From Hippopus hippopus (lineage: Eukaryota > Mollusca > Bivalvia > Cardiida > Cardiidae), in NCBI GenBank assembly GCA_946811185.2, contig OX328107.1:13481565-13545564 (forward strand): DNA of 64,000 nt, given 5' to 3'. The notes under the pieces were generated by a model, which saw nothing but the letters and a program-made list of their open reading frames with translations, made no database searches and was not told where the DNA came from. Positions 17,636-32,483 of the stretch are shown piece after piece. Both the position numbers and the translations under genes were made by a program. The first letter of the stretch is position 1. Each line of letters begins with the position of its first letter.

Positions 17636-17860
17636 CGACCCTTTACCAAACAATTCCGTGTTTTAACGATCCTGAGGATGCAGACTTTTGAAAATATTAC
17701 GGGAAAAGGAGAAAGACAGCATTTTCTCCTTTCCCCAAAATGTTTTCAAAAGTCTTCCTTGTCAGGATCGTATGATGGATGTGTTTCGTAAGGCGTTTGA
17801 ACGCTTAACGTTCATTACGTTGAATTGCCTTACAAATGCTTTCCTGGAGTTTCTTTTACT
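17636..17860 (+). mobile_element. Family B MITE, diverged
   Basis: ccctttaccaaacaattccg, then ggagaaagacagcattttct with a shortened palindrome, then ccttgtcaggatcg. Confidence 0.6.
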
Positions 17861-18800: not shown

Positions 18801-18813
18801 AAAAAAACTCAAT

Positions 18814-18819
18814 GGCGCC
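18814..18819. repeat. Polinton target-site duplication, left
   Basis: GGCGCC directly before the element's first base; the same six bases follow the last base at 32009-32014. Six bp is the usual Polinton target duplication. The hexamer is its own reverse complement, so it could also be read as part of the TIR. Confidence 0.85.
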
Positions 18820-18829
18820 AGTAGTATAG

Positions 18830-18880
18830 GACGCGTCTACACGGATCTGACAGGCCTGGTCAGATCCGTATAGACACGTC
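18830..18880. repeat. Near-terminal hairpin in left TIR
   Basis: The two arms, gacgcgtctacacggatctgac and its near complement (two mismatches), surround the loop aggcctg. The same structure occurs at 31948-31998, each starting about 10 bp from the element end. It could serve end recognition or replication. Confidence 0.8.
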
Positions 18881-19059
18881 CCTGTAGAGCCCTACGCTAC
18901 CTACCCTACAGAGAATTTGTCTCAGTTTGCCTACCCTGAAAGAATTTACATTATATCACTTCTACAAAAAATACCCAGTTTGCCTACCCTGAGGGGAATT
19001 TTTCTGCAATTAAAGGCTAAGTGACGGCCAAAAATGACACATTTTCTATTGTCAATCTT

Positions 19060-19655
19060 CTTTTCTCTCTAAAAGCCTGATCACTGAGTTGGACTTAGTT
19101 TTTTTACCCATATGCTTTTAGGATTGCTTTATTGTTTACTTCTATCCACTACTTGGCCTTTAAGTGGTTTCTCTCTCTCTAAAAGCCTGAGCACTGAGTT
19201 GGACTTAGTTTTTTTTACCCATATGCTATTAGGATTGCTTTATTGTTTACTTCTATCCACTACTTGACCTTTAAGTGGTTTCTCTCTCTAAAAGCCTGAG
19301 CACTGAGTTGGACTTAGTTTTTTATCCTATGAATGATTTTTTTCTCTAAAAGCTTGAGCACTGAGTTGGACTTAGTTTTTTCTGCATCTATGGATGATTT
19401 CTCTTTCTAAAAGCCTGACCCTTGAGTTGGACTTAGTTTTTTTCACCCTATGGATGATTTCTCTTTCTAAATGCCTAACCATTGAGTTGAACTTAGTTTT
19501 TTCTGCATCTATGAATGATTTCTCTAAAAAAAGCCTGATCACTGAGTAGGATATTTGCAATTAAAGGCTAGGTGACGACCAAAAAATGACACATTTTCTA
19601 TTGTCAATCTTTTTTTCTCTCTAAAAGCCTGATCACTGAGTTGGACTTAGACTTT
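19060..19655. repeat. Tandem array in left TIR (about 60-110 bp units)
   Basis: Eight or so units share aaaagcctgagcactgagtt followed by ggacttag, starting near 19069, 19178, 19288, 19346, 19408, 19468, 19527 and 19621. Early units are about 110 bp, later ones about 60 bp. The right TIR has only two (31622-31765). Short reading frames here are repeat artefacts. Confidence 0.85.
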
Positions 19656-19679
19656 TTTCTGAGTTTTTTTACTCTTTGG

Positions 19680-20000
19680 AGTGTAACTCTCTGGAGTGTA
19701 ACTCTTTGGAGTGTAACTCTTCTAAAAGAAAGAAGTTTGACAATTTGAAGAAATGACAATTTTGAAGATAGAACTTTCGTGGTAATGGTTAGTCCTGAAA
19801 AGGACTGTTGGGTTAGCTCTGAAAAGAGCTGTGACAATTTGAAGAAATGACAACTTGAAGATAGAACTTTCGTCTGACAACTTGAAGATAGAACTTTCGT
19901 CTGACAACTTGAAGAAATGACAATTTGAAGAAAAGATAGAACTTTCGTCTGACAATTTGAAGAAATGACAATTTGAAGATAGAACTTTCGTGGTAAATGG
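19680..20000. repeat. Second tandem array in left TIR
   Basis: Short units tctggagtgtaactct (about 19680-19730) and tgacaatttgaagaaatgac with gatagaactttcgtc (about 19738-19998), several copies each. The right TIR has a contracted version at about 31480-31605. Confidence 0.8.
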
Positions 20001-20066
20001 TTAGTCCTGAAAAGGACTGTTGGGTTAGCTCTGAAAAGAACTGTTGGGTTAGCCCTGAAAAGGGCT
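19791..20066 (-). terminator. Histone-type 3' stem-loops, five copies
   Basis: On the minus strand, downstream of the 101-codon gene, five 16-nt hairpins occur at 20066-20051, 20042-20027, 20018-20003, 19830-19815 and 19806-19791. Examples are agcccttttcagggct and agctcttttcagagct. They match the histone mRNA stem-loop core (YYYUHHUNARRR), with the basal G-C pair replaced by A-U. Trailing sequences include aaccca and aacca. The first lies about 50 nt after the stop codon. Confidence 0.6.
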
Positions 20067-20117
20067 GTTTTGTTTTGGAGGCTGTGTTTTTTCGTCTCAC
20101 GTTGTTTTTTTCCACTT

Positions 20118-20423
20118 CTAATGACAGCATCCGAAATTCGCTTGGCAAGTGGGGCATGCTTCAACTCTTTTTCTGATTACCATTGCTCCATTACCGAAAG
20201 TAATCTTCCTCCCAAATTCGATATCAACCAAAATGACATCCGGTGTTGTCTTTAAAAATAGTTGAACTAATCTTTCGCCGAGATCTTTGTATGTCTGTGT
20301 TATACGTTGTAGTTGGTTTTGTTCCTCCTCTCCTACGAAATGAGTGTTTAGTTGTAATAACTGTTGACCTGCATTTAGATATTCTTGGAGAGCCTCACGT
20401 AGTTGATAATTTATCTCCTCCAT
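20118..20423 (-). CDS. TIR-borne small protein, 101 aa, intact copy
   Basis: I do not recognise this protein. It begins MEEINYQLREALQEYLNAG, is rich in Gln/Glu/Leu and probably helical to residue 60, has a short beta-like stretch (PDVILVDIEFG, 61-71), and ends with four Cys (CPTC and a final CC). The Met at 20423 is preferred over the longer frame from 20660 because a TATA box (tataaaaccc, minus strand, 20520-20511) lies about 90 nt upstream. That box and its surroundings are conserved at the right TIR copy. Histone-like stem-loops follow the stop. Being in the TIR, the gene is present at both element ends, like duplicated ITR genes of some large DNA viruses. The terminal Cys cluster may bind zinc, but this is unproven. 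Confidence 0.65.
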   Translation of the reverse strand: MEEINYQLREALQEYLNAGQQLLQLNTHFVGEEEQNQLQRITQTYKDLGERLVQLFLKTTPDVILVDIEFGRKITFGNGAMVIRKRVEACPTCQANFGCCH

Positions 20424-20510
20424 ATTGATACTGCTTCCGAATATTGATACTGCTTTCGAAGTGTTCGTTAGCTGAGAGTCAAAAAATGATGAATGTATGG
20501 AAATAACGCT

Positions 20511-20520
20511 GGGTTTTATA
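20511..20520 (-). promoter_or_regulatory. TATA box of the left TIR gene
   Basis: tataaaaccc followed by agcgttatttcc on the minus strand; the same block occurs at 30934 before the right copy. A related plus-strand block (tttaaaacccagcgatattt) lies at about 20692, making 20424-20736 look like a divergent promoter region. Confidence 0.6.
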
Positions 20521-20710
20521 CGTTTAAGGAGGATTGAAATTTTTAAAGAGCGCGGACCTGACGGGAAACACCAGGATTGTACTGTGTGACACTGAGTTAG
20601 GAGTGGTAAAAACAGCATGAAACGCCAACGCGGGAAAAACATAGGAAAAAATGACGTCATGAGTCAATCAGTTCAACCCTCCTGTAAAGCTTTAAAACCC
20701 AGCGATATTT

Positions 20711-21289
20711 TTACATAAAATCATATTTGTTCCAGTATGGTTCGAATTCTTGTCTGCCCCCACTGCGCAAGCAGATGTCTGATAGAGTGTGGGAAATGTT
20801 TTGCCATACTTTTTTACCCTTGTGTTTTGTTGATTTGCAAAAGAAACAGTTCTTTGTTACTCGTTTTTTCTTCTTTTCGTTGTTTTGCTTTTTCTCCTCT
20901 TTTAGATCCAAAGTTTGTTGTTTTCTTAGATTATCGCTTGTAGATATTTTTTTCTCTGCCTGTTCTGTTATTTTGCAGATTTTTGAATCGGTGATATCCG
21001 TTGTGTCGGACTGCATGTCTACGGTCTGATTTTCAATCGGTGATATTGTAGTCTGTAGTGAACTTGTTTTCCATGTATTTTCGTTGTAGAATGAATTTAG
21101 TGTCCCGACGAATTTCGTATGTTGGAGACCGACAACGTTGTAAAACGATGGTGAAATTTCGATGTCATGACTGTGTGGGTTCACGTAGACAAAAAAACAA
21201 ATGTTCCTGTCTGATTTTCTTTTTTGGACAATTTCTGGACCAATGTCCTGCTTCGTTGCACGTAAAACAAATATTTGTTCTCTCACCAT
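20711..21289 (-). CDS. Polinton accessory protein, 192 aa, unknown
   Basis: Unrecognised. The N-terminal half (1-80) has mixed alpha/beta character. Residues 85-145 are Ser/Thr/Lys/Glu-rich and look disordered, with a KKKKR stretch that could be a nuclear localisation signal. A CFFC motif follows, with further His and Cys downstream (through about residue 172), so a zinc site is possible. A TATA-like tttataaatag lies about 70 nt upstream (21368-21358, minus strand). It is read divergently from the polB remnant and in tandem with the TIR gene. In related elements this left position can hold fast-changing accessory genes, so a host-interaction role is possible but unsupported here. A 68-codon frame on the opposite strand (20737-20943) was considered and set aside. 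Confidence 0.55.
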   Translation of the reverse strand: MVREQIFVLRATKQDIGPEIVQKRKSDRNICFFVYVNPHSHDIEISPSFYNVVGLQHTKFVGTLNSFYNENTWKTSSLQTTISPIENQTVDMQSDTTDITDSKICKITEQAEKKISTSDNLRKQQTLDLKEEKKQNNEKKKKRVTKNCFFCKSTKHKGKKVWQNISHTLSDICLRSGGRQEFEPYWNKYDFM

Positions 21290-21368
21290 TCATCCGATAT
21301 CGTTTGTCGAGCGTCGCTTGATCTAAAACTCTGTAGCTGATAGTACAGCGTATAGAGCTATTTATAAA

Positions 21369-21586
21369 AAAAAAAAAGCTTTACTACTAGACGCTGACGT
21401 AGTGTACCTCTACCCAATGGTCTATTTATAGCAACAGACGCTAACTATTGTGATCTAAGCCCCTGTCACACTAAACGGCGTTTCCACTGAGTTGCCACGG
21501 TGTTGTTTAAGTTCCCAGAGTACCAAGAGATCGCAGGAAAAATGCGAAGCTCCCGTGGCCTATTATCGCGTTCCTGATGTTGATGA
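21369..21586. other. Junction upstream of truncated polB
   Basis: Contains a plus-strand TATA-like ctatttatag near 21424-21433 and no coding match. This is where the missing N-terminal part of polB should begin, so a deletion breakpoint is expected between here and 21587. Confidence 0.4.
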
Positions 21587-22142
21587 AAAAAAAGCAAGAA
21601 GGAAATCAAGTACATTGATATCTGTTCTCTGTACCCTTATGTTTGTAAACACAAATCCTATCCTGTAGGTCAGCCAGAAATTTTGTCTGCTGAGAATATT
21701 GACATAAACAATATTCGACAATATGAGGGCTTAATCAAATGCAAAGTTTTACCTCCAACTGATTTGTTTCACCCCGTTCTCCCAGTTCACTGTAACAACA
21801 AAATGATGTTTCCACTCTGTATGAAATGTGCAGAAGAAAGTTCAAGTATTTGTAGCCATGGTAAAGAAGAGAGGGCTTTGGTCGGAACTTGGGTTACTTT
21901 TGAATTATTCAAGGCTCTTGACTGCGGTTATCGATTATTGCAAGTGTATGAAATTTGGCATTTCAATTCTGTGTCAGATCAGTTCTTTAAACGTTATGTG
22001 GACAATTTCTTGAAAATTAAGCAAGAAGCCAGTGGTTATCCAGATCGGTGTCAATCAGACTCAGAAAGAGCAATTGCACAAAGACATTACGGAATATGAA
22101 GACAAATGTGAAACTCGTGGTATTTGCGAATTTGCATTGTAA
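21587..22142 (+). pseudogene. polB: Protein-primed DNA polymerase B remnant
   Basis: A fragment of the Polinton pPolB. The open frame from 21587 holds polymerase motif A (DICSLYPYV, with the metal-binding Asp), and continues through a Cys-rich CMKCAEESSSIC segment to a KQEASGYP stretch, both typical of the metazoan family. Near 22080 the frame shifts to another phase (positions divisible by 3), where about 20 more codons run to a stop at 22140. The N-terminal exonuclease domain and motifs B and C (KxxxNSxYG, DTD) are absent. Only about 180 codons remain of an enzyme normally over 1000 residues, so the element cannot encode its own replication. Confidence 0.85.
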
Positions 22143-22295
22143 AAAAATATTTCAGTGTGATTTTTTTCATTGTCAAGAAAATGTTTTTTACGCTGTATTG
22201 TAAAAAAATGTTTCCTTATGAATTTTTTCATTGTCAAGAAAATTTTTTATGTTGCATTGCAAAAAATGTTTCATTGTTTAGTTCTGTTCAATAAA
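22136..22295 (+). terminator. 60-bp tandem repeat and shared 3' end with AATAAA
   Basis: A unit starting attgtaaaaaaat is repeated at 22136, 22197 and 22256. It runs into ttcattgtttagttctgttc and the signal aataaa at 22290. Nearly the same block ends the protease unit at 30724-30749, so this looks like a conserved polyadenylation region. Confidence 0.65.
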
Positions 22296-22362
22296 AATGC
22301 TTTCATTTTCAATGATGTTATCATTTTATCATTAGCCTTTAAAGAGTAAAGTAAAGTAAAAA

Positions 22363-23034
22363 ATGGATGTACAATCCATATTATTTCAACATCCTTGTAA
22401 TATTTTCATCACAGGGCCGAGCGGTTGTGGAAAAACAGAGTTCGTTCATAAATTAATTGAGTATCGAGAAGACTTGTTCAACATCGTTCCTGAAAGAGTT
22501 GTTTGGTGTTACAAAGAATGGCAACATGCCTACAGTGTTATGCAGGAAAAGTTTAATTCACAATTTGAATTGATAAAATTCGTGGAGGGGATTCCTGACG
22601 ACGAAAACGAAATTGTCAGTGATGTATCCATACCACATTTAATCGTCTTTGATGACATGTTGGGGGAAAAAGATGAGGAAAAAATTAAACTTTGGTTTAC
22701 AAGAAAAGGTCATCATCGTAATGCAAGTGTGATTTACATCACGCAAAATATGTTTCAACAATCGAAATCGAGTCGAACCATTAGCCTTAATTCTAGATAT
22801 ATGATTTTATTTCGAAATGAACGAGATAAGAATCAGATTAAAACATTAGCTCGACAAATGCAAGCCCCACATTTGGTACCTGCTTATGAAGATGCTACAT
22901 TGTCGGACCATGGATATCTAGTCGTAGATTTTCATTCACAAACAAACAAAGAATTAAGACTCCGAACAGATATATTTTACCGTTGGTATACACAAGGTAA
23001 TAAAAGAGGACCTGTTATTTATTCTTCTGCTTAA
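22363..23034 (+). CDS. A32-like genome-packaging ATPase
   Basis: 223 aa. FtsK/HerA-superfamily ATPase that pumps DNA into the capsid in Polintons and related viruses. The Walker A motif GPSGCGKT is at residues 18-25 and Walker B (HLIVFDD) at 92-98. A sensor-like block (HHRNASVIYITQN) follows at 117-129, with Arg residues at 138 and 145 that could serve in trans. Length is normal for the family and the frame is intact. The start ATG follows an A-run (aaaaaatgg). It is downstream of the polB remnant and upstream of core-protein genes, the usual Polinton neighbourhood. All core motifs are present, so activity is plausible. Confidence 0.93.
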   Translation: MDVQSILFQHPCNIFITGPSGCGKTEFVHKLIEYREDLFNIVPERVVWCYKEWQHAYSVMQEKFNSQFELIKFVEGIPDDENEIVSDVSIPHLIVFDDMLGEKDEEKIKLWFTRKGHHRNASVIYITQNMFQQSKSSRTISLNSRYMILFRNERDKNQIKTLARQMQAPHLVPAYEDATLSDHGYLVVDFHSQTNKELRLRTDIFYRWYTQGNKRGPVIYSSA

Positions 23035-23138
23035 AAAAGTTTCTTTAAGAAAAGTTTTTTACGCAAAAGTTCTTGCTTTAAAAGAGAATTACATTTTTAA
23101 ATATAAATCATCTTTATGATACCCATCCGTGAGTAAAC

Positions 23139-24081
23139 ATGGACTTACCACCTACACCAAGATCGGTTTTAGCTGCTTTGCGAAATTTAAGTCAACTAAC
23201 CGATAAACATGAAAGAGAAGCTGTGTTAAAAGCAGGATTAAAAGAAATTTTAAAATGGTTTACATTAGCTGCGCAAAACATCATCGAAAATAAAATCAAA
23301 TTACCAAAACAAACCATAACGTACATGACAAAACATAGAGCAGATATTGAACAGCTAGCAGATCCGTCCATAGATGAGGAAAGTAAACGTAAAATCATTT
23401 TAAAGCCTGGAGGGGGGTGGATTTCTAGGTGGTGTGATTATCAGAAGTTTGCTGAGATGGGATGGAACAAAAACCATCAGAAAATTTGGAGCTGAAAGAC
23501 AAACTCGAAAACGTGTTCCACGAAAGCGTGCTCCGCAAAAGAAGAAGTCTCCGAAAAAGAAAAAATCTCCAACAAAGAAGAAATCTCCAAAAAAGCTTAC
23601 TCCAAGAAAGCGTGCTCCACCAAAGAAAAAATCTCCAAAGAAGAAGAATTCACCACCAAAGAAGCATGCCCCAATTACGATTGATGAAAGATTTGTTACT
23701 ACCCGAAAACGAAGTTCTGTAGGAAGCAACATTTCAGAACATCAACAGTATCCGAAATCCGAAGAGGAAAGAATGAGAAAAAAACTGCAGGATTACGAAA
23801 GAAAGTATTCAAGATTCATATTACCAGGTAAAAAATTATCGTTTCAAGAAATCCCCTCCAGCACGGCGTCTCCAAAGACATTAGCTAAACATAAAAAAGG
23901 GTTAAAAAAATATAAACGAATGTTTTATGATATGGTGAAACACAACCTTGATACAGGGAGATATAATCTTGACGACAAAAATGAGGTGCTCCACCTTGGG
24001 AAAGGAAGATCTGTTCCCGTGGATTCATCTTTATCTACAGCCACTACATTAGCCGACGATCTCTATTCACAGTTTTCTTAA
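23139..24081 (+). pseudogene. Lys-rich core-like protein gene split by a frameshift
   Basis: The first frame (23139-23495) starts MDLPPTPRSVLAALRNL and is helical, leading to a PGGG motif encoded at a run of six G (23412-23417). After the run this frame becomes unlike any family. The overlapping frame ending at 24081 instead continues with a Gly-rich hydrophobic stretch, a region with at least six KKKSP-type repeats, and a structured C-terminal half (YERKYSRFILPGKKLSF). I read this as one gene of about 310 codons broken by an indel in the G run; an assembly error or slippage is also possible. The KSP repeats suggest a DNA-condensing protein comparable in character to adenovirus core proteins, inferred from composition only. 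Confidence 0.65.
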
Positions 24082-24132
24082 GAAATTTTAACAACAAATT
24101 TTGTCTACAAAAAAACATTATATTAGCTATAA

Positions 24133-24552
24133 ATGTTAGTGATATGGAACTTGTATTATCATTTAATCCGAAATCGAGATCAAGTCAACATGAAGAAGAA
24201 AACACCTCTGATAAAAAAACATGGTTCAATGGTTATGGCTATGATACAGGCTAAACCAAAAGCACGTAAAAAACTTGTAAAAGATTCATCACCTGAAGTG
24301 ATAAAATGCATATCGGAATGCTGTCATAATGTTTTAAAAGGCAATGTACATTTATCATCACCTCAGAAGAAGAAATTGTATTCAAGTAGGCAGCATCTCA
24401 GACGTTTAGCTTCGAAATCAGTCTCAGTAAAAAATAAAAAACAAATATTAAATCAAAAAGGTGGATTTCTTCAATTGCTTGGTCCTGCATTATTACCATT
24501 GTTAGGAAAAGCCGTTATCGGAGGAATAGGAGGAGCTCTTAAGGCCTTGTAA
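24133..24552 (+). CDS. Small basic 'KGGF' Polinton protein
   Basis: 139 aa as opened at 24133; the Met at residue 20 (followed by KKKTP) may be the real start because the family has a short basic N-terminus. It has a conserved ECCHNVLKGNVHLS block followed by KKKLYSSRQHLRRLA, then a KGGFLQLLGPALLPLLG motif leading into a Gly/Leu-rich hydrophobic end. Proteins with this layout recur in metazoan Polintons and adintoviruses; a core (pX-like) or membrane-active virion role has been proposed for such proteins, but none is proven here. The KGG could be a protease site, but it does not fit the adenain consensus (M/I/L)xGG exactly. Confidence 0.75.
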   Translation: MLVIWNLYYHLIRNRDQVNMKKKTPLIKKHGSMVMAMIQAKPKARKKLVKDSSPEVIKCISECCHNVLKGNVHLSSPQKKKLYSSRQHLRRLASKSVSVKNKKQILNQKGGFLQLLGPALLPLLGKAVIGGIGGALKAL

Positions 24553-24570
24553 TTTTATAATTTTTAAATT

Positions 24571-25455
24571 ATGTCTGTTAAAAAAATGGTTATTGTGCCT
24601 TACCAAACCTTAGAAAATATGAATCGTTGGAAAGCCGAACAAGCTCAAAGACCTCGTTTACCACCCAATCCACAAGTTGTAGATGTAGTACATCTTCAAC
24701 AGGACATGGGACATATTTTAAAAAACACCAATTTATCAGAATCGGAAAAAGCTCAAAAGTATGGTGAGACTTTGTTTAAGTTACAAAATTCTCTTCAAAA
24801 AGCAAGACCGACTTTGAACAATTTACTTTCAACGACAAAAAGTGATGATAGTGTACAGAAATCAACATCTGTTACCTTGCATGATCAAATTTTGCAAAGT
24901 GTACCAAAAACCATGAAAAGAAAAGCCGAGTTACTTTTGAATATGATAAAAGATAACAATAATTTAACTTGGGATGAACAAGGAGTTGTGTCATATAAAG
25001 GCGGACGCATTCATGGTTCCAATATCATCGATCTTATCAATGATGCAATACGTCAAAGAAAAGGTGTTGAACCCAAAGGCTGGAAAACTTTTTCAAAGGC
25101 ATTACATGAAAGTAATATTCCGCAAGAAGTCATTGGCAATCCAAGCAGATGGAGGTGGATGCATAAAACTTATGATAAAGCTTATGATAAGCCGCTGAGT
25201 GAAGATGAAGAATCCCATGGTGAGTCTGATTACTTATTTCACACACCAAAAAGTGTACAAAAAACTGCAAGGAAATCGCCTGCAAAAAGTGTTAAAAAAT
25301 CTACGATGAAAACTCCATACATGAAAACTCCATACATGAAACCTGAAGAAAAAGAAAGACTGAAGCAATTCTATACTAAAGAGTTGTTAACTCCACCAGA
25401 TTCTATAAAAAAGACCCCTAGTCGTAAAACGGCTCAGTCATGGGAGCCCTGGTAA
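24571..25455 (+). CDS. Conserved Polinton protein of unknown function
   Basis: 294 aa. The N-terminus (VKKMVIVPYQTLENMNRW) and a helical region (60-115, LQQDMGHILKNTNLSESEK) precede a compact domain at about 120-200 containing WDEQGVVSYKGGRIHGSNI and NDAIRQRK. The C-terminal 90 residues are basic and low-complexity with TPKS, KSPAK and a duplicated MKTPY. The central domain is a recurrent feature of metazoan Polintons, where it sits next to the integrase, as it does here. The duplicated TP/SP motifs look like kinase sites. Its stop overlaps the start of the integrase frame by 16 nt. Function is unknown; packaging or core association would be a guess. Confidence 0.75.
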   Translation: MSVKKMVIVPYQTLENMNRWKAEQAQRPRLPPNPQVVDVVHLQQDMGHILKNTNLSESEKAQKYGETLFKLQNSLQKARPTLNNLLSTTKSDDSVQKSTSVTLHDQILQSVPKTMKRKAELLLNMIKDNNNLTWDEQGVVSYKGGRIHGSNIIDLINDAIRQRKGVEPKGWKTFSKALHESNIPQEVIGNPSRWRWMHKTYDKAYDKPLSEDEESHGESDYLFHTPKSVQKTARKSPAKSVKKSTMKTPYMKTPYMKPEEKERLKQFYTKELLTPPDSIKKTPSRKTAQSWEPW

Positions 25456-26526
25456 AGCCTAAACTTGATTACGTGTTAAGAAAGTTATTTTATGATCCCA
25501 AAAGTACTGTCGCATTTACTGGAATAAACCAATTGTATCACGCTGCAAAATCTGTTTTGAAAGGAATAAGATACAAAGATGTTCAAGAGTGGTTACGAGG
25601 TGAATCCACCTATACCTTACACAAACCAATCCGTCGACGTTTCAAAAGACGAAAAACAACATTTAGCAAAACAAAATGATAACAAGAAATATTTACTTTG
25701 TGTAATCGACGTGTTTTCAAGATTTTCATGGGTTGTCCCTATTCCAAATAAAATGGGAAAAACTTTGATTCGAGCATTTCAATCTATTGTTCAGAAATCA
25801 AAACGAAAACCTTTGGCACTTCAAACAGATAAAGGTTCGGAATTCAAAAACAAATTGTTTCAACAATACTTGAAAAAGAGTCAGATTCATTTTTTCACCA
25901 CCGAAAATCCAGAGACAAAAGCAAGCCTCGTTGAAAGATTTCAACGAACTTTAAAATCGAGAATGTGGAAATACTTTACGTACAAGAAAACAAGACGTTA
26001 CATTGACGTATTGAATTCTTTAGTTCAGAATTACAATCATACTTTTCACAGAAGTATTAAAACATCTCCTGCAATGGTAACAAAATCAAATGAGGCAGAG
26101 GTTTCGAAAAATCTGTATCCTCGATTATCGACAATCGCTATGACGAAAAAGCCAAAATTCGAAATTGGAGATCGTGTTCGGATCAATAAAACAAAACGCA
26201 CATTTGATAAGGGATATTTACCAAATCGGACGCAAGAAATATTTGAAATCACTCATGTTAACAAGATATTTTCACCTATCACCTATAAAATAAAAGATTT
26301 ACAGGGTGAACAAATTTTGGGAACTTATTATGAATACGAACTTCAATTAATAAAAGATGATGAAGTCTATGAAATTGATTCAGTTCTTGATAGACGTACA
26401 AGGCGTGAGGGCAAAAAATTAATCAAAGAAATAAAAGTCAATTGGAAAGGTTATCCAAAAAAATTTCAAAGTTGGATACCAGAATCGCATTTGGTGTCTT
26501 TGAAGGGGAAAAAATCTTATAGATAA
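25440..26526 (+). pseudogene. Retrovirus-type integrase with chromodomain, broken
   Basis: The N-terminal part lies in the first frame (25440-25679: FYDPKSTVAFTGINQLYHA, then TYTLHKPIRRRFKR). The rest is in another frame, entering near 25650 with HLAKQNDNKKYLL and running to 26526. The segment expected between them, including the WQADL-type first catalytic Asp, is missing, so deletion and frameshift fall together at about 25640-25665. The second Asp (LQTDKGSEF) and Glu (SLVERFQRTL) remain, with 34 residues between them. The C-terminus is a chromodomain (from about 26368; VNWKGYP..FQSWIP), the part thought to steer integration to methylated histone. Loss of the DDE triad means it should not catalyse integration, so the insertion used another integrase or predates the damage. 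Confidence 0.88.
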
Positions 26527-26575
26527 AAAAATCTTATAGATAAAAAATCTTATAATAAAAAATCTTATAAAAAGA
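26520..26575 (+). repeat. Short tandem repeat with TATA box
   Basis: Three copies of an aaaaaatcttata-type unit between integrase and the next gene, the last running into cttataaaaag (26563-26573), a fair TATA box for the gene at 26586. Confidence 0.5.
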
Positions 26576-26585
26576 CAGTACATTT

Positions 26586-26891
26586 ATGATGAATTCACAG
26601 TCAAACATTGAGTGCGCAACAGAAAGTGTCGATAGTGTTGGTACTAAAAATTACAACTGCTGTGGAAATCGTGTTCCAAAGAATCAGTTTACATATATTT
26701 CACAGATAATAGTCATTTACGCAATTATTGCAACCTCCATAGTACATTTAAGTATTCAAAGTCAGGATCGTGAATTGTGGTTGATACTGTTAAGTAGTTC
26801 ACTCGGATATATTCTCCCATCTCCGGGGTTAAAATTCACAAAGACAGAACAAAAACAACCAGGACTTGATTTCATTGACAGTAAAAAATAA
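26586..26891 (+). CDS. Small two-TM Polinton protein
   Basis: 101 aa. A Cys-containing N-terminal region ends with CCGNRVPKNQF and is followed by two hydrophobic segments (about 38-56 and 65-82), the second carrying LLSSSLGYILPSPG. This layout (CCG-x-VPK, TM, LLSS-x-LGY-x-LP) is one I recognise as recurrent in metazoan Polinton/adintovirus elements. Its role is unknown; a membrane protein in assembly or release is an inference. A TATA-like element lies just upstream and penton-like protein follows 13 nt downstream. Confidence 0.7.
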   Translation: MMNSQSNIECATESVDSVGTKNYNCCGNRVPKNQFTYISQIIVIYAIIATSIVHLSIQSQDRELWLILLSSSLGYILPSPGLKFTKTEQKQPGLDFIDSKK

Positions 26892-26903
26892 AATATTTAA
26901 AAA

Positions 26904-27800
26904 ATGAATTCGTTTTATGTTACTTTACCTAGCGATAGTTCCATAAACCTTTATCCGAACAACACACAGTGCTGTTTTAAAGTTCATTTACCAAAGACAG
27001 TTCATATTGATAGGGAAAATTGGGAAGTTGCATTAGTTCAACTTATTACCCCCTCTCAGTTTTTAAACGTAAGTGAACAAGAAGCAAAGTTCGAAATTAT
27101 AACTGCAGATAACGCTTTATACAACGCAGTAACAGCGGTAGATAAAAAAAGAGATAATATGGAGATATCTGTATTAAGGCGAGACGATAAAGGTAGAGCA
27201 GAAAAATGGTCAATTCTATTTACCTTTCCACCGGGTAGTTACACTTCACCAAAGCATATTATAGAGGTGATCGATGATTTGGTTCAAAATAACCTATCGG
27301 GTGTCCTTCAAAAGAATTCAATGCTACTGTCTATTAGCTATTCAACCTCATCCAAACGTCCGAAACTTGCAATCAGAAATATTACAAAAACCGGAATCAA
27401 ATTCCACTCATCGCTGTTTTTAAAACTGGGAGGATCGCCAGAATTTCAAAACGAGGCGATTTATCCGGGTAGAAGATTTTTAAATGCATTTAAATACAGT
27501 CCTAACATCGATGCTGGCTACAACCATCTGTTTGTTTATTCAGATATTGCCGAACACACTATAGTGGGTGATACATTTGCTCCCATACTTCGTGTTTTAC
27601 CGTTCAAACCAACCGAATCAGTTGAAAATAATTATGAAACCCAACATATCAACCATGATATTACATTACCGCATTATATCCCCGTTTCGAAATCTGATTT
27701 CGATACTATTCACATTCAAATAACAGGGGATTCTGGCATATCGTTTCATTTCATTACTGGTAAGACAATCGTCAAGTTACATTTCAGACAGAAAAAATAA
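26904..27800 (+). CDS. Penton-like minor capsid protein
   Basis: 298 aa. It begins MNSFYVTLPSDSSINLYPNN and is beta-rich throughout. The block HLFVYSDIAEHTIVGDTFAP followed by LRVLPF is the most conserved feature of the Polinton family assigned as the minor capsid (penton) protein, a single-jelly-roll fold forming the capsid vertices. A second conserved block (LPHYIPVSKSDFDTIHI) sits near the C-terminus. Length is close to the family norm and the frame is intact. The ATG follows an A-run (ttaaaaaatg). It lies two genes before MCP, as expected. Assignment to penton rests on known family order and motifs. Confidence 0.82.
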   Translation: MNSFYVTLPSDSSINLYPNNTQCCFKVHLPKTVHIDRENWEVALVQLITPSQFLNVSEQEAKFEIITADNALYNAVTAVDKKRDNMEISVLRRDDKGRAEKWSILFTFPPGSYTSPKHIIEVIDDLVQNNLSGVLQKNSMLLSISYSTSSKRPKLAIRNITKTGIKFHSSLFLKLGGSPEFQNEAIYPGRRFLNAFKYSPNIDAGYNHLFVYSDIAEHTIVGDTFAPILRVLPFKPTESVENNYETQHINHDITLPHYIPVSKSDFDTIHIQITGDSGISFHFITGKTIVKLHFRQKK

Positions 27801-27847
27801 AAAATATTTGATATTTTGAAATAATTAAACTGATACATTGACAAAAA

Positions 27848-28228
27848 ATGCTGCCAGTTTATCGTGGCGTAAAACATCAGTATGGGTATGGATTAGGTTC
27901 CCTATTTAGATCAGCACTTAAAACAGTGACACCATTGCTTAAACCCTTAGTCAAATCTGGTTTTAATGCTATAAAAAAAGAAGGAATCAAACAAGGAATA
28001 CGTGCAGCAGAAGATATCCTTTTACGTGGTAAAAACCCCAAAAAAGTTACAGTCTCGCGGGGAAAACAATATGTTCATAATTTAGCGCAACAGTTAATAC
28101 CTGGGATAAATAAACGAAAATCACAAAAGACAAGTCATTTATCTTCTCGATCTCACAGGGCTAAGATTATTAATAAAAGACAAAGAAATCATTACACTAG
28201 ACCGAGACCTCTTGATATATTTGATTGA
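27848..28228 (+). CDS. pVI-like Polinton protein
   Basis: 126 aa, strongly basic. The N-terminus HQYGYGLGSLFRSALKTV starts an amphipathic helix (about 17-60: LKTVTPLLKPLVKSGFNAIK). The C-terminal half is Arg/Lys/Ser-rich and probably disordered (KRKSQKTSHLSSRSHRAK). A GYG-x-GS start followed by an amphipathic helix is common in this position in Polintons and recalls adenovirus pVI, which sits under the hexons and disrupts membranes once cleaved. That function is an inference from layout. The gene overlaps the longest open frame of MCP, but MCP probably starts at 28278, after its stop. Confidence 0.7.
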   Translation: MLPVYRGVKHQYGYGLGSLFRSALKTVTPLLKPLVKSGFNAIKKEGIKQGIRAAEDILLRGKNPKKVTVSRGKQYVHNLAQQLIPGINKRKSQKTSHLSSRSHRAKIINKRQRNHYTRPRPLDIFD

Positions 28229-28277
28229 GAGAAAAAATCTTTTGAAAAAATCTTTTTTTGAAAAATCTTTTTTGAAA

Positions 28278-29585
28278 ATGATGCAAAGCGGATCTTGCGA
28301 ATGCAGTAAATCAGAACTCGATGTTCTTTCTGTACCACCTACATTGACAACGATGCAAGAAAGTCAATGGGTTGAACATTTTCCAATATCATCTTTGACA
28401 AACAATTCACCGATAGAATTCATCATACCACCTCAAACCGAACATTGGACAGATTTATCACAATCGTATTTGTATATCAAATTCAAAATCGTTAAAGCAG
28501 ATGGCAGCAATTTAGATGCCGGCTCAAATGTAGCCCCTGTAAACAATTTCATGCACAGTATGTTTAGCAGTATCGATTTGTATCTAAATAATAAACTAAT
28601 CAACAGTAATTCAGACACCTATCCATACAGAGCATATATCGAAAATCTTCTGTCATATAATGCCGACTGTAAGACCACGTTTTTGAAAGGTGGTGTACTT
28701 TGGATCGAAGACACCAGTGGCCAATTCGGAGCACTCAACCATGATGGGAATAATGAAGGTTTACGAGGAAGAATCGCTGTAATCACACTAAGCAGAACTG
28801 CAGAGCTTTTCGGACGATTGCATCTTGATCTATTTCAGCAAGAAAAATATTTACCTAACGGTATTGAAATCAGACTTAGATTAAACAGAGCTTCATCAAA
28901 CTTTTGTCTTACGGGAGGTACTGGTGCACCAGCTGCAAAAATTGTATTGGAAACAGTCAGTTTACATATGCGAAATGTCGAATTGTTGCCTGTTATTGCG
29001 AATGATCTAAATCGAATTATTTCTCAGCAAAACATGAAAATTCCTATCCGCAGAGTAGAAGTAAAGACTTTTACCATTGGTAATGGACTTCAGTCTAAAG
29101 TTGAAGATCATTTGTTTCAAGGACAGCTTCCGAAACGTGTTTTCATTGCAATGGTAACAAATGCTAGTTATAATGGAGGTTATGATACCAATCCATTTTT
29201 CTTTCAACATTTCAATCTGTCAAAAATAGATGTATCATGTAATGGTCACAGTATTCATAACAGACCCTTTGAACCTGACTTTGAAAATGGCTTGTATTTG
29301 AAATCATATTTGTCAATGTATCAGGCTGTCTCAGCCTTCGGGCTCAATAAATCATTTGATATTGCCAAAGAAGATTATGCTGGTGGATACTGTTTGTGGG
29401 GGTACGATTTGACAGCTGATCAAGGTAGTGAAGAAGGTCAACTTCACCCTATAAAAACTGGAAGTCTTCGAATTGAGCTTCAATTCGCCCAAGCCTTGGC
29501 AGCAGTGGTCAACGTTATTGTTTTTGCTGAATTTGACAACCAGATCGAAATCAACAGTTTGAGAGAAATCATCACAGATTACTAA
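28278..29585 (+). CDS. MCP: Major capsid protein, double jelly-roll
   Basis: 435 aa from the ATG at 28278 (a second Met follows). The frame is open from 28212, but those codons overlap the previous gene and encode low-complexity sequence, and the A-run before 28278 fits the start context of neighbours. The signature SSIDLYLNNKLI...TYPYRAYIENLL (about residues 93-120) is typical of the hexon-like MCP of Polintons and adintoviruses. It should form trimeric capsomers with two upright jelly rolls. Length fits the family and no stop or frameshift is seen. A histone-like stem-loop lies 27 nt after the stop codon, unlike the other genes of the cluster. Confidence 0.93.
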   Translation: MMQSGSCECSKSELDVLSVPPTLTTMQESQWVEHFPISSLTNNSPIEFIIPPQTEHWTDLSQSYLYIKFKIVKADGSNLDAGSNVAPVNNFMHSMFSSIDLYLNNKLINSNSDTYPYRAYIENLLSYNADCKTTFLKGGVLWIEDTSGQFGALNHDGNNEGLRGRIAVITLSRTAELFGRLHLDLFQQEKYLPNGIEIRLRLNRASSNFCLTGGTGAPAAKIVLETVSLHMRNVELLPVIANDLNRIISQQNMKIPIRRVEVKTFTIGNGLQSKVEDHLFQGQLPKRVFIAMVTNASYNGGYDTNPFFFQHFNLSKIDVSCNGHSIHNRPFEPDFENGLYLKSYLSMYQAVSAFGLNKSFDIAKEDYAGGYCLWGYDLTADQGSEEGQLHPIKTGSLRIELQFAQALAAVVNVIVFAEFDNQIEINSLREIITDY

Positions 29586-29612
29586 CTTCGGAAAAAATCA
29601 CATCAGAAAAAC

Positions 29613-29628
29613 AGTCCTTTTCAGGACT
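29613..29628 (+). terminator. Histone-type 3' stem-loop after MCP
   Basis: agtccttttcaggact, preceded by aaaac and followed by aaagagc. It is identical to one of the TIR stem-loops and fits YYYUHHUNARRR. Its distance from the stop (27 nt) resembles histone mRNAs. The purine-rich aaagagc could act like a histone downstream element, although it lies closer than usual. Confidence 0.55.
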
Positions 29629-29651
29629 AAAGAGCATATATAGAAAAAACA

Positions 29652-30002
29652 ATGCTTGGACTCAGATTTGCTATATCACTGAGAGAAGAAGCAGAAAAAG
29701 TGAAATATTCTACTCCAAAGTGCATCTCTACTCGGAAAAATGACATTCACAATAGCTTCGAAAAACATATGATTGAAGAATTACAAAATCTTATTGCCAG
29801 TGAAGTTTGCAACCAGTGTTACGGATGTCAAGTGGACCACCCCAGTCAAATACAGCACGATCTGTGTTTATTCAAGAACAGACAAGAACATACGGATATG
29901 TTCATAGAAAAAGCTATGATGGAATTAAATCCATACAAAATGATGGAAAAATGGTATCCTGAATTAATGGAAATGAAACTCGATGACAGTGACTATGTGT
30001 AA
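29652..30002 (+). CDS. Small Cys/His Polinton protein
   Basis: 116 aa. The central motif CNQCYGCQVDHPSQIQHDLC has four Cys and two His spaced to coordinate zinc. The flanks are helical and acidic toward the C-terminus (MEMKLDDSDYV). Proteins with a CxxC-x-GC..HPSQ..H.C core recur between MCP and protease in metazoan Polintons; no function is established. A catatatag TATA-like element lies about 20 nt before the start codon, immediately after the MCP stem-loop, so it may have its own promoter. Confidence 0.65.
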   Translation: MLGLRFAISLREEAEKVKYSTPKCISTRKNDIHNSFEKHMIEELQNLIASEVCNQCYGCQVDHPSQIQHDLCLFKNRQEHTDMFIEKAMMELNPYKMMEKWYPELMEMKLDDSDYV

Positions 30003-30124
30003 ACCTACAGAATATGGCAAAATATAAAACAAAACATTTTATCTGAAATCACAGAATCGTACTTACAATACTGGTGTGACAAAGTAAAACAATCCTGGGA
30101 AGAAAGTGACTAAGAAGAAAAAAC

Positions 30125-30628
30125 GTGATGTATACTTCTGAAATTCAATACATATTGGATCACGGAACCTGGATAAAAAATCTACAGGCGAAAGTCTGTG
30201 CAAAAGACCAGTTGCCTCGACAGAAACCAAATCATGTGAAAGCCTACATTGTGAATACAGAGAGATCAAATAAACCAGGAGAACACTGGGTGGCGGTGAT
30301 ATTCAACAATAATGACAATGTACTATACTTTGATCCGTATGGACTACCACCACTTGAGCCAGAAATCATTAACTTTTTAGACAATCATTCTTCAACATGG
30401 AGATACAATCGACAAACTCTTCAGAGTCTACAGGGTAAAGTTTGCGGGCTTTACTGTATCTTTGTATTGGATGCTGCTGCTAGAGGATACAATATACAGA
30501 AATATCTTCAACAGAAATTCCTCTCAACGAAACACCATCGAAACGATCGAGATGTATCATTGTGGTTTAATCAACACTACGGGATTCTATACAAGAAAAT
30601 TTCAGAGACTCAAACCCACAAACAGTGA
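30125..30628 (+). CDS. PRO: Adenain-like (Ulp1-type) cysteine protease
   Basis: 167 aa, family C5/C48-like. The catalytic set is visible: His54 (GEHWVAV), Asp70 (YFDPYG), Gln103 and Cys107 (LQSLQGKVCGLYC). In adenoviruses and Polintons this enzyme cleaves capsid and core precursors during maturation. Length is a little under adenovirus protease but normal for Polintons, and the frame is intact. The Met pair at 30128-30130 is near; either start is possible, with the upstream ATG used here. It is the last plus-strand gene before the right TIR. Its 3' end carries the AATAAA block shared with the polB unit. Confidence 0.93.
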   Translation: MMYTSEIQYILDHGTWIKNLQAKVCAKDQLPRQKPNHVKAYIVNTERSNKPGEHWVAVIFNNNDNVLYFDPYGLPPLEPEIINFLDNHSSTWRYNRQTLQSLQGKVCGLYCIFVLDAAARGYNIQKYLQQKFLSTKHHRNDRDVSLWFNQHYGILYKKISETQTHKQ

Positions 30629-30884
30629 AAAATGATCTTTTTTTTTGCTATCAATTCATTGTGAATATTTCATTTTTTGTCTTTTTTTACAGGTCATTGT
30701 AAAATATGTTCATTGTAAATATGTTCATTGTTCAGTTCTGTTCAATAAATAAAAGTTCAAAAACAATAGAGTTCTTCATTCTGTTTTCCCCAAGACTTGT
30801 TCTGTCTACATTTTTTCCCATACATCGGGTCATAACTATTTTTGCTATATTAGTATGAAACGTAGGATGGGAAAAAATGTATGT
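30629..30884 (+). terminator. 3' region with shared motif and AATAAA
   Basis: The motif ttcattgttcagttctgttc followed by aataaa lies at 30724-30749, almost the same as at 22271-22295. A loose inverted repeat (cattttttcccatac and gtaggatgggaaaaaatg) lies at about 30809-30878, just inside the right TIR. Confidence 0.6.
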
Positions 30885-30933
30885 GCTTTCTGCCAGGTCC
30901 GAGCTCTTTAAAAATTTCAATCCTCCTTAAACG

Positions 30934-30940
30934 TATAAAA
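30934..30940 (+). promoter_or_regulatory. TATA box of the right TIR gene
   Basis: tataaaa followed by cccagcgatatttcc, identical in context to the left TIR box; 110 nt before the start codon at 31050. Confidence 0.6.
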
Positions 30941-31049
30941 CCCAGCGATATTTCCATACATTCATCATTTTTTGACTCTCAGCTAACGATCACTTCGAAA
31001 GCGGTATCAATATTCGGAAGCAGTATCAATATTCGGAAGCAGTATCAAT

Positions 31050-31363
31050 ATGGAGGAGATAAATTATCAACTACGTGAGGCTCTCCAAGAATATCTAAAT
31101 GCAGGTCAACTGTTATTAAGTTATTACAACTAAACACTCATTTCGTAGGAGAGGAGGAACAAAACCAACTACAACGTATAACACAGCCATACAAAGATCT
31201 CGGCGAAAGATTAGTTCAACTATTTTTAAAGACAACACCGGATGTCATTTTGGTTGATATCGAATTTGGGAGGAAGATTACTTTCGGTAATGGAGCAATG
31301 GTAATCAGAAAAAGAGTTGAAGCATGCCCCATTTGCCAAGCGAATTTCGGATGCTGTCATTAG
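31050..31363 (+). pseudogene. TIR-borne small protein, broken right copy
   Basis: Same gene as 20423-20118 minus. After about 20 matching codons, a net insertion of 8 bases near 31107-31116 shifts the frame to an early stop; the remaining codons continue in the displaced frame up to the TAG at 31361. Near its end CPTC has become CPIC. The TATA box and the stem-loops are kept, so a transcript may still form. Confidence 0.75.
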
Positions 31364-31414
31364 AAATGGAAAAAAACAACGTGAGACGAAAAAACACAGC
31401 CTCCAAAACAAAAC

Positions 31415-31478
31415 AGCCCTTTTCAGGGCTAACCCAACAGTTCTTTTCAGAGCTAACCCAACAGTCCTTTTCAGGACT
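31415..31478 (+). terminator. Three histone-type 3' stem-loops
   Basis: agcccttttcagggct (31415-31430), agttcttttcagagct (31439-31454) and agtccttttcaggact (31463-31478), spaced exactly 24 nt. The first follows the TIR gene stop by about 50 nt. The last is followed by aaccatttaccacgaaag, which resembles the ACCA plus purine-rich downstream element of animal histone genes. Confidence 0.6.
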
Positions 31479-31621
31479 AACCATTTACCACGAAAGTTCT
31501 ATCTTCAAAATTGTCATTTCTTCAAAATTGTCAAACTTCTTTCTTTTAGAAGAGTTACACTCCAAAGAGTTACACTCAAAAGAGCCACACTCCAGAGAGT
31601 AAAAAAAAACTCAGAAAAAGA

Positions 31622-31765
31622 CTAAGTCCAACTCAGTGCTCAGACTTTTAGAGAGAGAAACCACTTAAAGGCCAAGTAGTGGATAGAAGTAAACAATAAA
31701 GCAATCCTAATAGCATATGGGTAAAAAATCTAAGTCCAACTCAGTGATCAGGCTTTTAGAGAGAA
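31622..31765. repeat. Contracted tandem array in right TIR
   Basis: Two units with ctaagtccaactcagtg; counterpart of the expanded left array. Confidence 0.8.
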
Positions 31766-31947
31766 AAGAAGATTAACAATAGAAAATGTGTCATTTTTGG
31801 CCGTCACTTAGCCTTTAATTGCAGAAAAATTCCCCTCAAGGTAGGCAAACTGGGTATTTTTTGTAGAAGTGATATAATGTAAATTCTTTCAGGGTAGGCA
31901 AACTGGGACAAATTCTCTGTAGGGTAGGTAGCGTAGGGCTCTACAGG

Positions 31948-31998
31948 GACGTGTCTATACGGATCTGACCAGGCATGTCAGATCCGTATAGACGCGTC
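31948..31998. repeat. Near-terminal hairpin in right TIR
   Basis: Arms gtgtctatacggatctgac and its complement gtcagatccgtatagac around a short loop; counterpart of 18830-18880. Confidence 0.8.
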
Positions 31999-32008
31999 CT
32001 ATACTACT

Positions 32009-32014
32009 GGCGCC
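32009..32014. repeat. Polinton target-site duplication, right
   Basis: GGCGCC directly after the element's last base. Confidence 0.85.
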
Positions 32015-32483
32015 AAAATCGCTGACTTCTGCAGACGAATTCAATCGTCTTGTCGTAGAATGCTTTTGAAAATCTGAATACAAATAGAGAATTTGCCCGT
32101 GACCAGCATTTTCTCGTTTTCCCATAGTGTTTCACCATGCATTCAATCTTAACTCACTTACACAGCCCGATTTCTCTAATTTTACAAAGATCTTTTCAGA
32201 TAATTGATTTAATAAAAAGCTAGTTTTAACGGTTCAATTTCTTGTTCTGCCTGCACATGTTAGCCAGTAAATATTAAGAAAGAATTAACGACACGCCAAT
32301 CAATCGTGACGAAATACAACAAAACTCATTCTTCTACCCACAAATCCATTTCCGGATTCTCTATGACGTCATGAAATGTCCGATACAAAGGTGGTGTTCG
32401 TTTCAAGTTGACGGGTACTAGTTGTTGATAATTATCCGCTTATTATATTCGATAAAAGGTTTTTGAAAAGGACTTCATCTTAA

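Follow-up and report, generated by a model that had tools for sequence, protein, structure and literature searches.

How do the messages of a virus-like mobile element end when its genes are followed by hairpins of the kind found behind histone genes? The question is raised by a Polinton/Maverick element of the bivalve Hippopus hippopus, which lies within a stretch of 64,000 nucleotides (nt) of contig OX328107.1 (assembly GCA_946811185.2, positions 13,481,565 to 13,545,564, forward strand); this whole stretch is the window referred to below. Judged by sequence, the small genes near the ends of this element and its relatives resemble the host's own histone genes at both ends, in a promoter box and in the 3' end. 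The designation "histone-type 3' end" is strongly supported by sequence for the terminal-repeat gene and for other small genes of related copies. The major capsid protein (MCP) gene is the weakest member of the set, with a hairpin alone.

Nine hairpins and two kinds of gene end

A preliminary description of the window had reported nine 16-nt hairpins with the core of the histone stem-loop, and all nine are located in the Polinton at the positions claimed, on the sense strand of the preceding gene. Each has six of six pairs (G-U counted), a UUUC loop and A-U as its first stem pair. As described there, one lies 27 nt past the MCP stop, which ends at 29585, three follow the right terminal-repeat gene and five the left. 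The MCP hairpin was said to be identical to one terminal-repeat copy; the identity is real, and it extends to three copies (starting at 31463, 20003 and 19791) rather than one. The ACCA-like and CGAAAG elements noted beside the last right hairpin are also present, and elements of the same kind, together with TGTCA, follow the hairpins of host histone genes. The features are as follows.

18813-32015 (approximate, between the outer inverted repeat arms), no strand: Polinton/Maverick element, from inverted repeats I1-I5 and Pfam domains
28278-29585, plus: MCP gene, predicted double jelly-roll major capsid protein; AlphaFold model with pLDDT 83.9, best PDB match the Sputnik virophage capsid (E 1.3e-17)
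29613-29628, plus: MCP hairpin, without GAAAG element and without TGTCA; host histone model 22.3 bits, E 0.08
20118-20423, minus: left terminal-repeat gene, 101 amino acids (aa); one candidate in the protein search, none significant
20051-20066, minus: hairpin 1 of the left terminal-repeat gene, by pattern and pairing
20027-20042, minus: hairpin 2 of the left terminal-repeat gene, by pattern and pairing
20003-20018, minus: hairpin 3 of the left terminal-repeat gene, followed by the complete downstream signal; 19954-20026 scores 47.7 bits with the host histone model (E 2.7e-7)
19985-19990, minus: CGAAAG element of left hairpin 3, offset 12 past the hairpin
19966-19972, minus: ATTGTCA element of left hairpin 3, offset 30
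19815-19830, minus: hairpin 4 of the left array, by pattern and pairing
19791-19806, minus: hairpin 5 of the left array, followed by the complete downstream signal; 19742-19814 scores 55.6 bits with the host histone model (E 5.4e-9)
19774-19779, minus: CGAAAG element of left hairpin 5, offset 11
19754-19760, minus: ATTGTCA element of left hairpin 5, offset 30
31415-31430, plus: hairpin 1 of the right terminal-repeat gene, by pattern and pairing
31439-31454, plus: hairpin 2 of the right terminal-repeat gene, by pattern and pairing
31463-31478, plus: hairpin 3 of the right terminal-repeat gene, followed by the complete downstream signal; 31455-31528 scores 51.0 bits with the host histone model (E 5.3e-8)
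31491-31496, plus: CGAAAG element of right hairpin 3, offset 12
31510-31516, plus: ATTGTCA element of right hairpin 3, offset 31

The nine hairpins are far above the shuffle background. Among 1000 dinucleotide shuffles of the element, 971 contained no such hairpin, 28 contained one and 1 contained two, a mean of about 0.03. Five stretches, each containing one window hairpin, fold into that hairpin with z-scores of -2.1 to -3.9 relative to shuffles. A mere minisatellite was considered as the source of the terminal-repeat hairpins and dropped.

Other genes of the same element end with ordinary poly(A) signals and serve as a contrast.

22286-22295, plus: poly(A) signal GTTCAATAAA past the polB fragment, by sequence match
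30740-30749, plus: poly(A) signal GTTCAATAAA past the protease gene, by sequence match

For the integrase gene and that at 26904-27800, an AATAAA or ATTAAA motif is found no farther than 30 nt away, and for the ATPase gene at about 200 nt. Neither motif occurs within 300 nt of the MCP gene, and among 28 hairpin genes of the window and its relatives none (0/28) has either motif between stop and hairpin or in the next 100 nt.

Host histone genes and their signals

The histone hairpin model Rfam RF00032, run on the host genome (1.07 Gb in 34 contigs), gave 74 hits, of which 73 are on contig C15 at 33.5-37.9 bits, one at 26.49 Mb and the others in a histone array that spans 40.57-41.47 Mb. The 74th, at 31.4 bits, is on contig C8 (about 42.664-42.665 Mb), where hairpins of the AGTCCTTTTAAGGACT kind recur in a stretch that is apparently not a histone gene. 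Named animals in the list of relatives of the host's histone H1 are molluscs and an annelid. Six host histone ends were read, from two H2A genes and one each of H3, H4, H2B and H1; H2A, H3, H4 and H1 were recognized by their open frames and H2B by its start and position. Past the hairpin, all six have GA at offset 11-12 (GAAAG twice, GAGAG twice, GAAAA and GAATT) and TGTCA at offset 30-34, the latter in five histone types. We know of no name for a TGTCA block past the histone hairpin.

The Polinton hairpins were compared with these ends in the window and in eight further stretches of the host genome (L074-L081), picked for containing hairpins. L074 and L075 have polB frames that by eye share sequence with the polB fragment of the window; L076-L081 are tied to the family through shared small genes only. 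Among the 67 hairpins of this set, 60 have ACC or AACC directly past the stem. GAAAG or GAAAAG follows at 8-24 nt in 41 and TGTCA at 27-40 nt in 39; many of the hairpins that lack GAAAG or TGTCA stand first in a tandem pair. The forms of the GA-rich element considered for pairing with U7 were CGAAAG and CAAGAAAG.

A covariance model built solely from the six host histone 3' ends was then searched against 201,569 bases. With E-values that are rough, the calibration being short, it found 47 sites at E<0.01 (best E 1.3e-9), all of them in the window element or in L074-L081, and its top score for the small genes was 58.5 bits. In the window, the sites at this threshold are three terminal-repeat ends, at 19742-19814, 31455-31528 and 19954-20026. 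Eight stretches of viral contigs that contain the hairpin pattern were taken as chance matches: in none does a GA-rich element come after ACC (two of the matches end close to a contig edge), and these bare hairpins reach at most 18.1 bits with the host model.

In common with the replication-dependent histone mRNA 3' end (RF00032 plus downstream element), the Polinton ends have a 6-bp stem, a UUUC loop, a U-A closing pair, G-C at pair 2 and an AAC flank (found in 5/6 host ends), followed by ACC or AACC, a GA-rich element at 10-13 nt and TGTCA at 27-40 nt. For recognition by the stem-loop-binding protein (SLBP), the loop and the second pair, G-C, matter most. The Polinton ends differ from histone ends in standing on non-histone genes of a mobile element, in having A-U at pair 1, in often being tandem, and in falling short of the RF00032 gathering score.

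The likeness extends to the promoter, where two boxes were found in the window.

30885-30905, plus: histone-type promoter box of the right terminal-repeat gene, 3 mismatches to the host-only box; TATAAA at 30934, CATTCA at 30959
20549-20569, minus: promoter box of the left terminal-repeat gene, more diverged, 5 mismatches; TATAAA at 20520, CATTCA at 20495

The box GCTTTCGMCCRGGWMCGCGCT is common to host H1, H4 and H2B and also stands upstream of several hairpin genes. A looser form of it was composed after both host and Polinton sequences had been seen; a box defined from the host alone was then used for the tests on the window and L074. With up to 3 mismatches, the host-only box has a single match in the window, at 30885-30905, and none in 100 shuffles; with 5 allowed, an unrelated site of the window (61656) matches as well. 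L074 has copies with 0 and 2 mismatches, and a 37-nt piece of the host H1 promoter is identical at 34 of 37 positions to the promoter of the L074 terminal-repeat gene. The looser box has 1626 matches genome-wide, compared with 0 for a reversed control. Each of the first 18 boxes in the genome listing is followed on its own strand by a hairpin no more than 1.5 kb away, and none by a hairpin on the other strand, in a check that covered these boxes and the first 100 hairpins listed.

Host and Polinton promoters share the GCTTTCGMCCRGGWMCGCGCT box, GGTCAATCC or TTCAATCC, a TATA-like box and CATTC near the start, a start motif usual in histone genes. In the host, GGTCAATCC precedes the TATA-like box in H2B and the array H2A, and TTCAATCC is present in H3 and the second H2A. 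The differences are the 3 and 5 mismatches of the window boxes, the lack of the box in 3/6 host promoters and the non-histone coding sequence. TGTCA and the GCTTTC box are themselves candidate elements of the host's histone genes.

Copies of the hairpin across the genome

The motif AACAGYYCTTTTCARRRCT has 11,357 matches genome-wide and none in a reversed control. The first 100 sites listed fall into 12 clusters; 9 of these run minus strand first and then plus over 7-15 kb, 1 is a single site and 2 are mixed. In L074-L081, five families of small proteins lie upstream of hairpins, on the sense strand only, and each of them is seen in two copies or more: the terminal-repeat protein ending in FGCCH or FGCCN, a cysteine-rich protein, a coiled-coil protein, one ending in CPACxKVGGCA and one starting with MKDNK. 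An 89-residue frame, encountered a single time, is followed by hairpins as well, as is the MCP in the window.

Among the 48 hairpins that come first in a cluster in the window and L074-L081, 28 have, on their own strand, an open reading frame (ORF) of 50 aa or more that ends no farther than 60 nt upstream, and 0 have one on the opposite strand, a count that is conditional on the choice of these stretches; random same-strand positions have such an ORF in 229 of 2400 cases. The distance from stop to hairpin in the 28 is 19-51 nt.

The hairpin is conserved between subfamilies. Pairwise among 22 genes it keeps 14-16 of its 16 bases, while coding identity goes down to 0.35 (some low values stem from unequal frame lengths) and identity of the stretch from stop to hairpin to 0.42. 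Pairing covaries as well: in 112 hairpins gathered without any requirement for pairing at pairs 3-5, these pairs are fully Watson-Crick in 82, compared with a mean of 40.7 and a maximum of 53 in 1000 reshuffles of the 3' side, in a count that ignores the kinship of copies, does not represent independent events and could owe something to sequence exchange between copies. Pair 3 is T-A in 43, C-G in 43 and T-G in 22; pair 4 is C-G in 95 and T-A in 14.

The MCP was examined in 50 ends, from the 30 closest copies (L024-L053, the window's own included) and 20 further copies (L054-L073). A hairpin stands 21-29 nt past the stop in all 50, and three hairpins precede the next gene in 17 of the 20 further copies; since the hairpin is both universal in this sample and tripled in most of the further copies, it has evidently been kept and multiplied. 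Against a complete histone-type end on this gene, neither GAAAG or GAAAAG within 60 nt past the first hairpin nor TGTCA at 20-50 nt is found in any of the 50. All six pairs are present in 42; seven hairpins have a mispair, one has an insertion in the loop and a ninth a changed loop base. The host model, run on 10 of the 30 loci L024-L053 and all 20 of L054-L073, gave 18.2-25.0 bits in 25 of these 30 ends and 15.8 in one, and four were not reported.

Three MCP relatives at 37-40% identity, recorded in bacterial metagenome-assembled genomes (MAGs), have neither a histone-type hairpin nor a host-model match up to E 10. The check among related elements that the preliminary description had proposed divides, with the hairpin in all 50 copies read and in none of these three. 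The three loci are apparently animal DNA and cannot date the hairpin trait.

These data give nearly even standing to the reading that full histone-type ends are confined to the small terminal genes, with the MCP hairpin a degenerate or regulatory relic and the MCP message ending elsewhere. The MCP scores are far from the 58.5 bits reached by small genes, the GA-rich element and TGTCA are missing throughout, and 4 of the 30 closest copies share one mispaired hairpin. The retention of the hairpin in every MCP copy and its multiplication in the further ones speak against a relic.

How the messages may be made

Our preferred reading, which we consider probable, is that the small terminal genes are expressed like replication-dependent histone genes through host factors, and polB and the protease gene by ordinary polyadenylation. 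Host factors would start the small genes from the histone-type promoter box, and host SLBP and U7 machinery would cut the transcripts just past the hairpin. The resulting mRNAs would be without poly(A) tails and favored during S phase, the time at which the element depends on host replication. The polB and protease genes would use their poly(A) signals, and the MCP message, with its hairpin alone, may bind SLBP without full U7-directed cutting. The proposal of histone-type 3' ends on Polinton transcripts thus stands for the terminal-repeat and other small genes, where the host model, GA-rich element, TGTCA and promoter box agree, and is reduced to the hairpin for the MCP. The preliminary description had the kind of signal right and understated it, the likeness being present at both gene ends.

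The host has an SLBP RNA-binding domain (PF15247), with two neighboring matches on contig C11 of 60.7 and 33.1 bits that we read as two exons; the domain is found in 0 of 14 control genomes. Histone processing requires both the stem-loop and a downstream element pairing with U7 (PMC9756948), and metazoan histone mRNAs are described as a unique class of mRNA without poly(A) (PMC12775136).

Several observations weigh against this reading. With RF00032, the model suggested earlier for a check, six of the nine window hairpins score 19.6-24.4 bits and fall short of the gathering score of 34. The window copies have A-U as first stem pair where all six host histone ends have G-C, and exact GAAAG occurs in just two of those host ends. 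GAAAG or GAAAAG is missing from 26 of the 67 Polinton hairpins and TGTCA from 28, and H3 and both H2A genes have no promoter box. No ORF reaching 50 aa ends in the 60 nt before 20 of the 48 first-of-cluster hairpins, most of which belong to tandem arrays or follow no such frame, and some of the ORFs counted for the other 28 are possibly damaged or in the wrong frame. A U7 gene was not recognized in the host with RF00066, which is uninformative here as 12 of 14 prokaryote controls also match, or with an Sm-site pattern, which gave 11 hits compared with 5 in a control; ten regions, covering 10 of the 11 hits, were read, and none has a convincing U7 layout. The module could also have stayed alike through sequence exchange among copies, with no selection acting on the individual genes.

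A rival reading is passive carriage, in which histone promoter and 3'-end pieces were captured once and spread with the element, the tandem copies being functionless repeat growth. The copies are indeed numerous and often tandem, the 37-nt stretch differs little from the H1 promoter, and exchange can hold repeats alike. We nevertheless regard this as unlikely: the module ends five recurring families of small proteins, and a bare hairpin the MCP, in the right orientation, the hairpins are near-identical despite diverging neighbors and have compensated base changes, and there are no poly(A) signals around the module. As to the origin of the likeness, by capture or by convergence, the 34/37 promoter match favors capture.

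It is very unlikely that the hairpins are signals of the element's own, on the pattern of the Mimiviridae, marking cutting and poly(A) addition by viral enzymes with no part for the histone pathway. The MCP fold is nearest to that of a virophage, and hairpin-marked polyadenylation is known in Mimiviridae, where, as reported in PMC4402537, a hairpin likewise marks the transcript end in a group of large viruses and the poly(A) is added by viral enzymes. The hairpin, flank, GA-rich element, TGTCA and promoter box of the Polinton match host histone genes specifically, however, and polB and the protease gene carry AATAAA. Pfam gave no match to a nuclease or poly(A) polymerase in the ten window proteins scanned, four of which have no match at all. 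A cruciform acting in the DNA, as a signal for replication, recombination or packaging unrelated to mRNA ends, would fit the concentration of hairpins towards the element ends and their mirror arrangement in 9 of the first 12 clusters, but is hardly credible given the strand-specific placement after stops (28/48 against 0/48) and the match of the UUUC loop and downstream elements to an RNA signal.

Histone-like expression of the small genes remains our preferred reading, and a wider one is in our view somewhat more likely than not: that a Polinton lineage took over both outer parts of host histone genes, the promoter and the 3' end, to serve at least five non-histone gene families, whose messages would be made in or like those of the histone locus body, without poly(A) and only during host DNA replication, while the core transposition genes kept to poly(A) ends. 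Among the papers listed in searches of the open-licence literature in PubMed Central, judged by titles and starts of abstracts, none reports histone-type ends in Polintons. If true, this would be a new means by which a mobile element couples viral expression to S phase, and it would provide natural non-histone clients of SLBP and U7 with which to test what sequence commands the pathway.

The element itself has the components of a Polinton/Maverick: pPolB (a fragment here), a retroviral-type integrase, a packaging ATPase, a protease, a double jelly-roll capsid protein and terminal inverted repeats. Pfam matches on the window proteins are DNA_pol_B_2 (the fragment), rve plus Chromo in the integrase, an A32-like ATPase and an adenovirus-type protease. 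It differs from three distant relatives, those at 37-40% MCP identity, in its histone-type gene ends. The MCP has no Pfam match; because its AlphaFold model best matches the Sputnik capsid, we take it to be a double jelly-roll capsid protein on the basis of the modeled fold. It has 658 relatives in the protein search, including some at 58-86% identity, with Mercenaria among the names given, and none in IMG/VR scans with the MCP or with an MCP alignment. Its own genome contains at least 97 copies (97 of 2141 candidates were scored) that are 97-100% identical and for the most part open in frame, and these form a recently active family. With an oyster MCP as the query on the window's own genome, the same abundant family is among the matches listed. 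The Polinton MCP genes found in bacterial MAGs of invertebrate symbionts (L021, L022 and L023), along with a protein record named as bacterial (P0049), probably stem from host DNA that was binned with the bacterial sequence.

The 101-aa terminal-repeat protein has no significant homolog in the protein search. Its left copy is open, and its right copy (31051-31363) is frame-disrupted. The ORF past the MCP (29652-30002) seems by eye to be shorter here than in some sister copies. Near both element ends (18829-18881 and 31947-31999) are imperfect hairpin-forming inverted repeats of 53 nt that are 85% alike, and repeat units around AACTAAGTCCAACTCAGTG occur at 19030-19660, with six copies on the left side and two on the right. 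An inverted repeat at 17666-17771 resembles a small hairpin transposon and has weak matches to microRNA models (mir-627, E 0.0006) below the curated cutoff.

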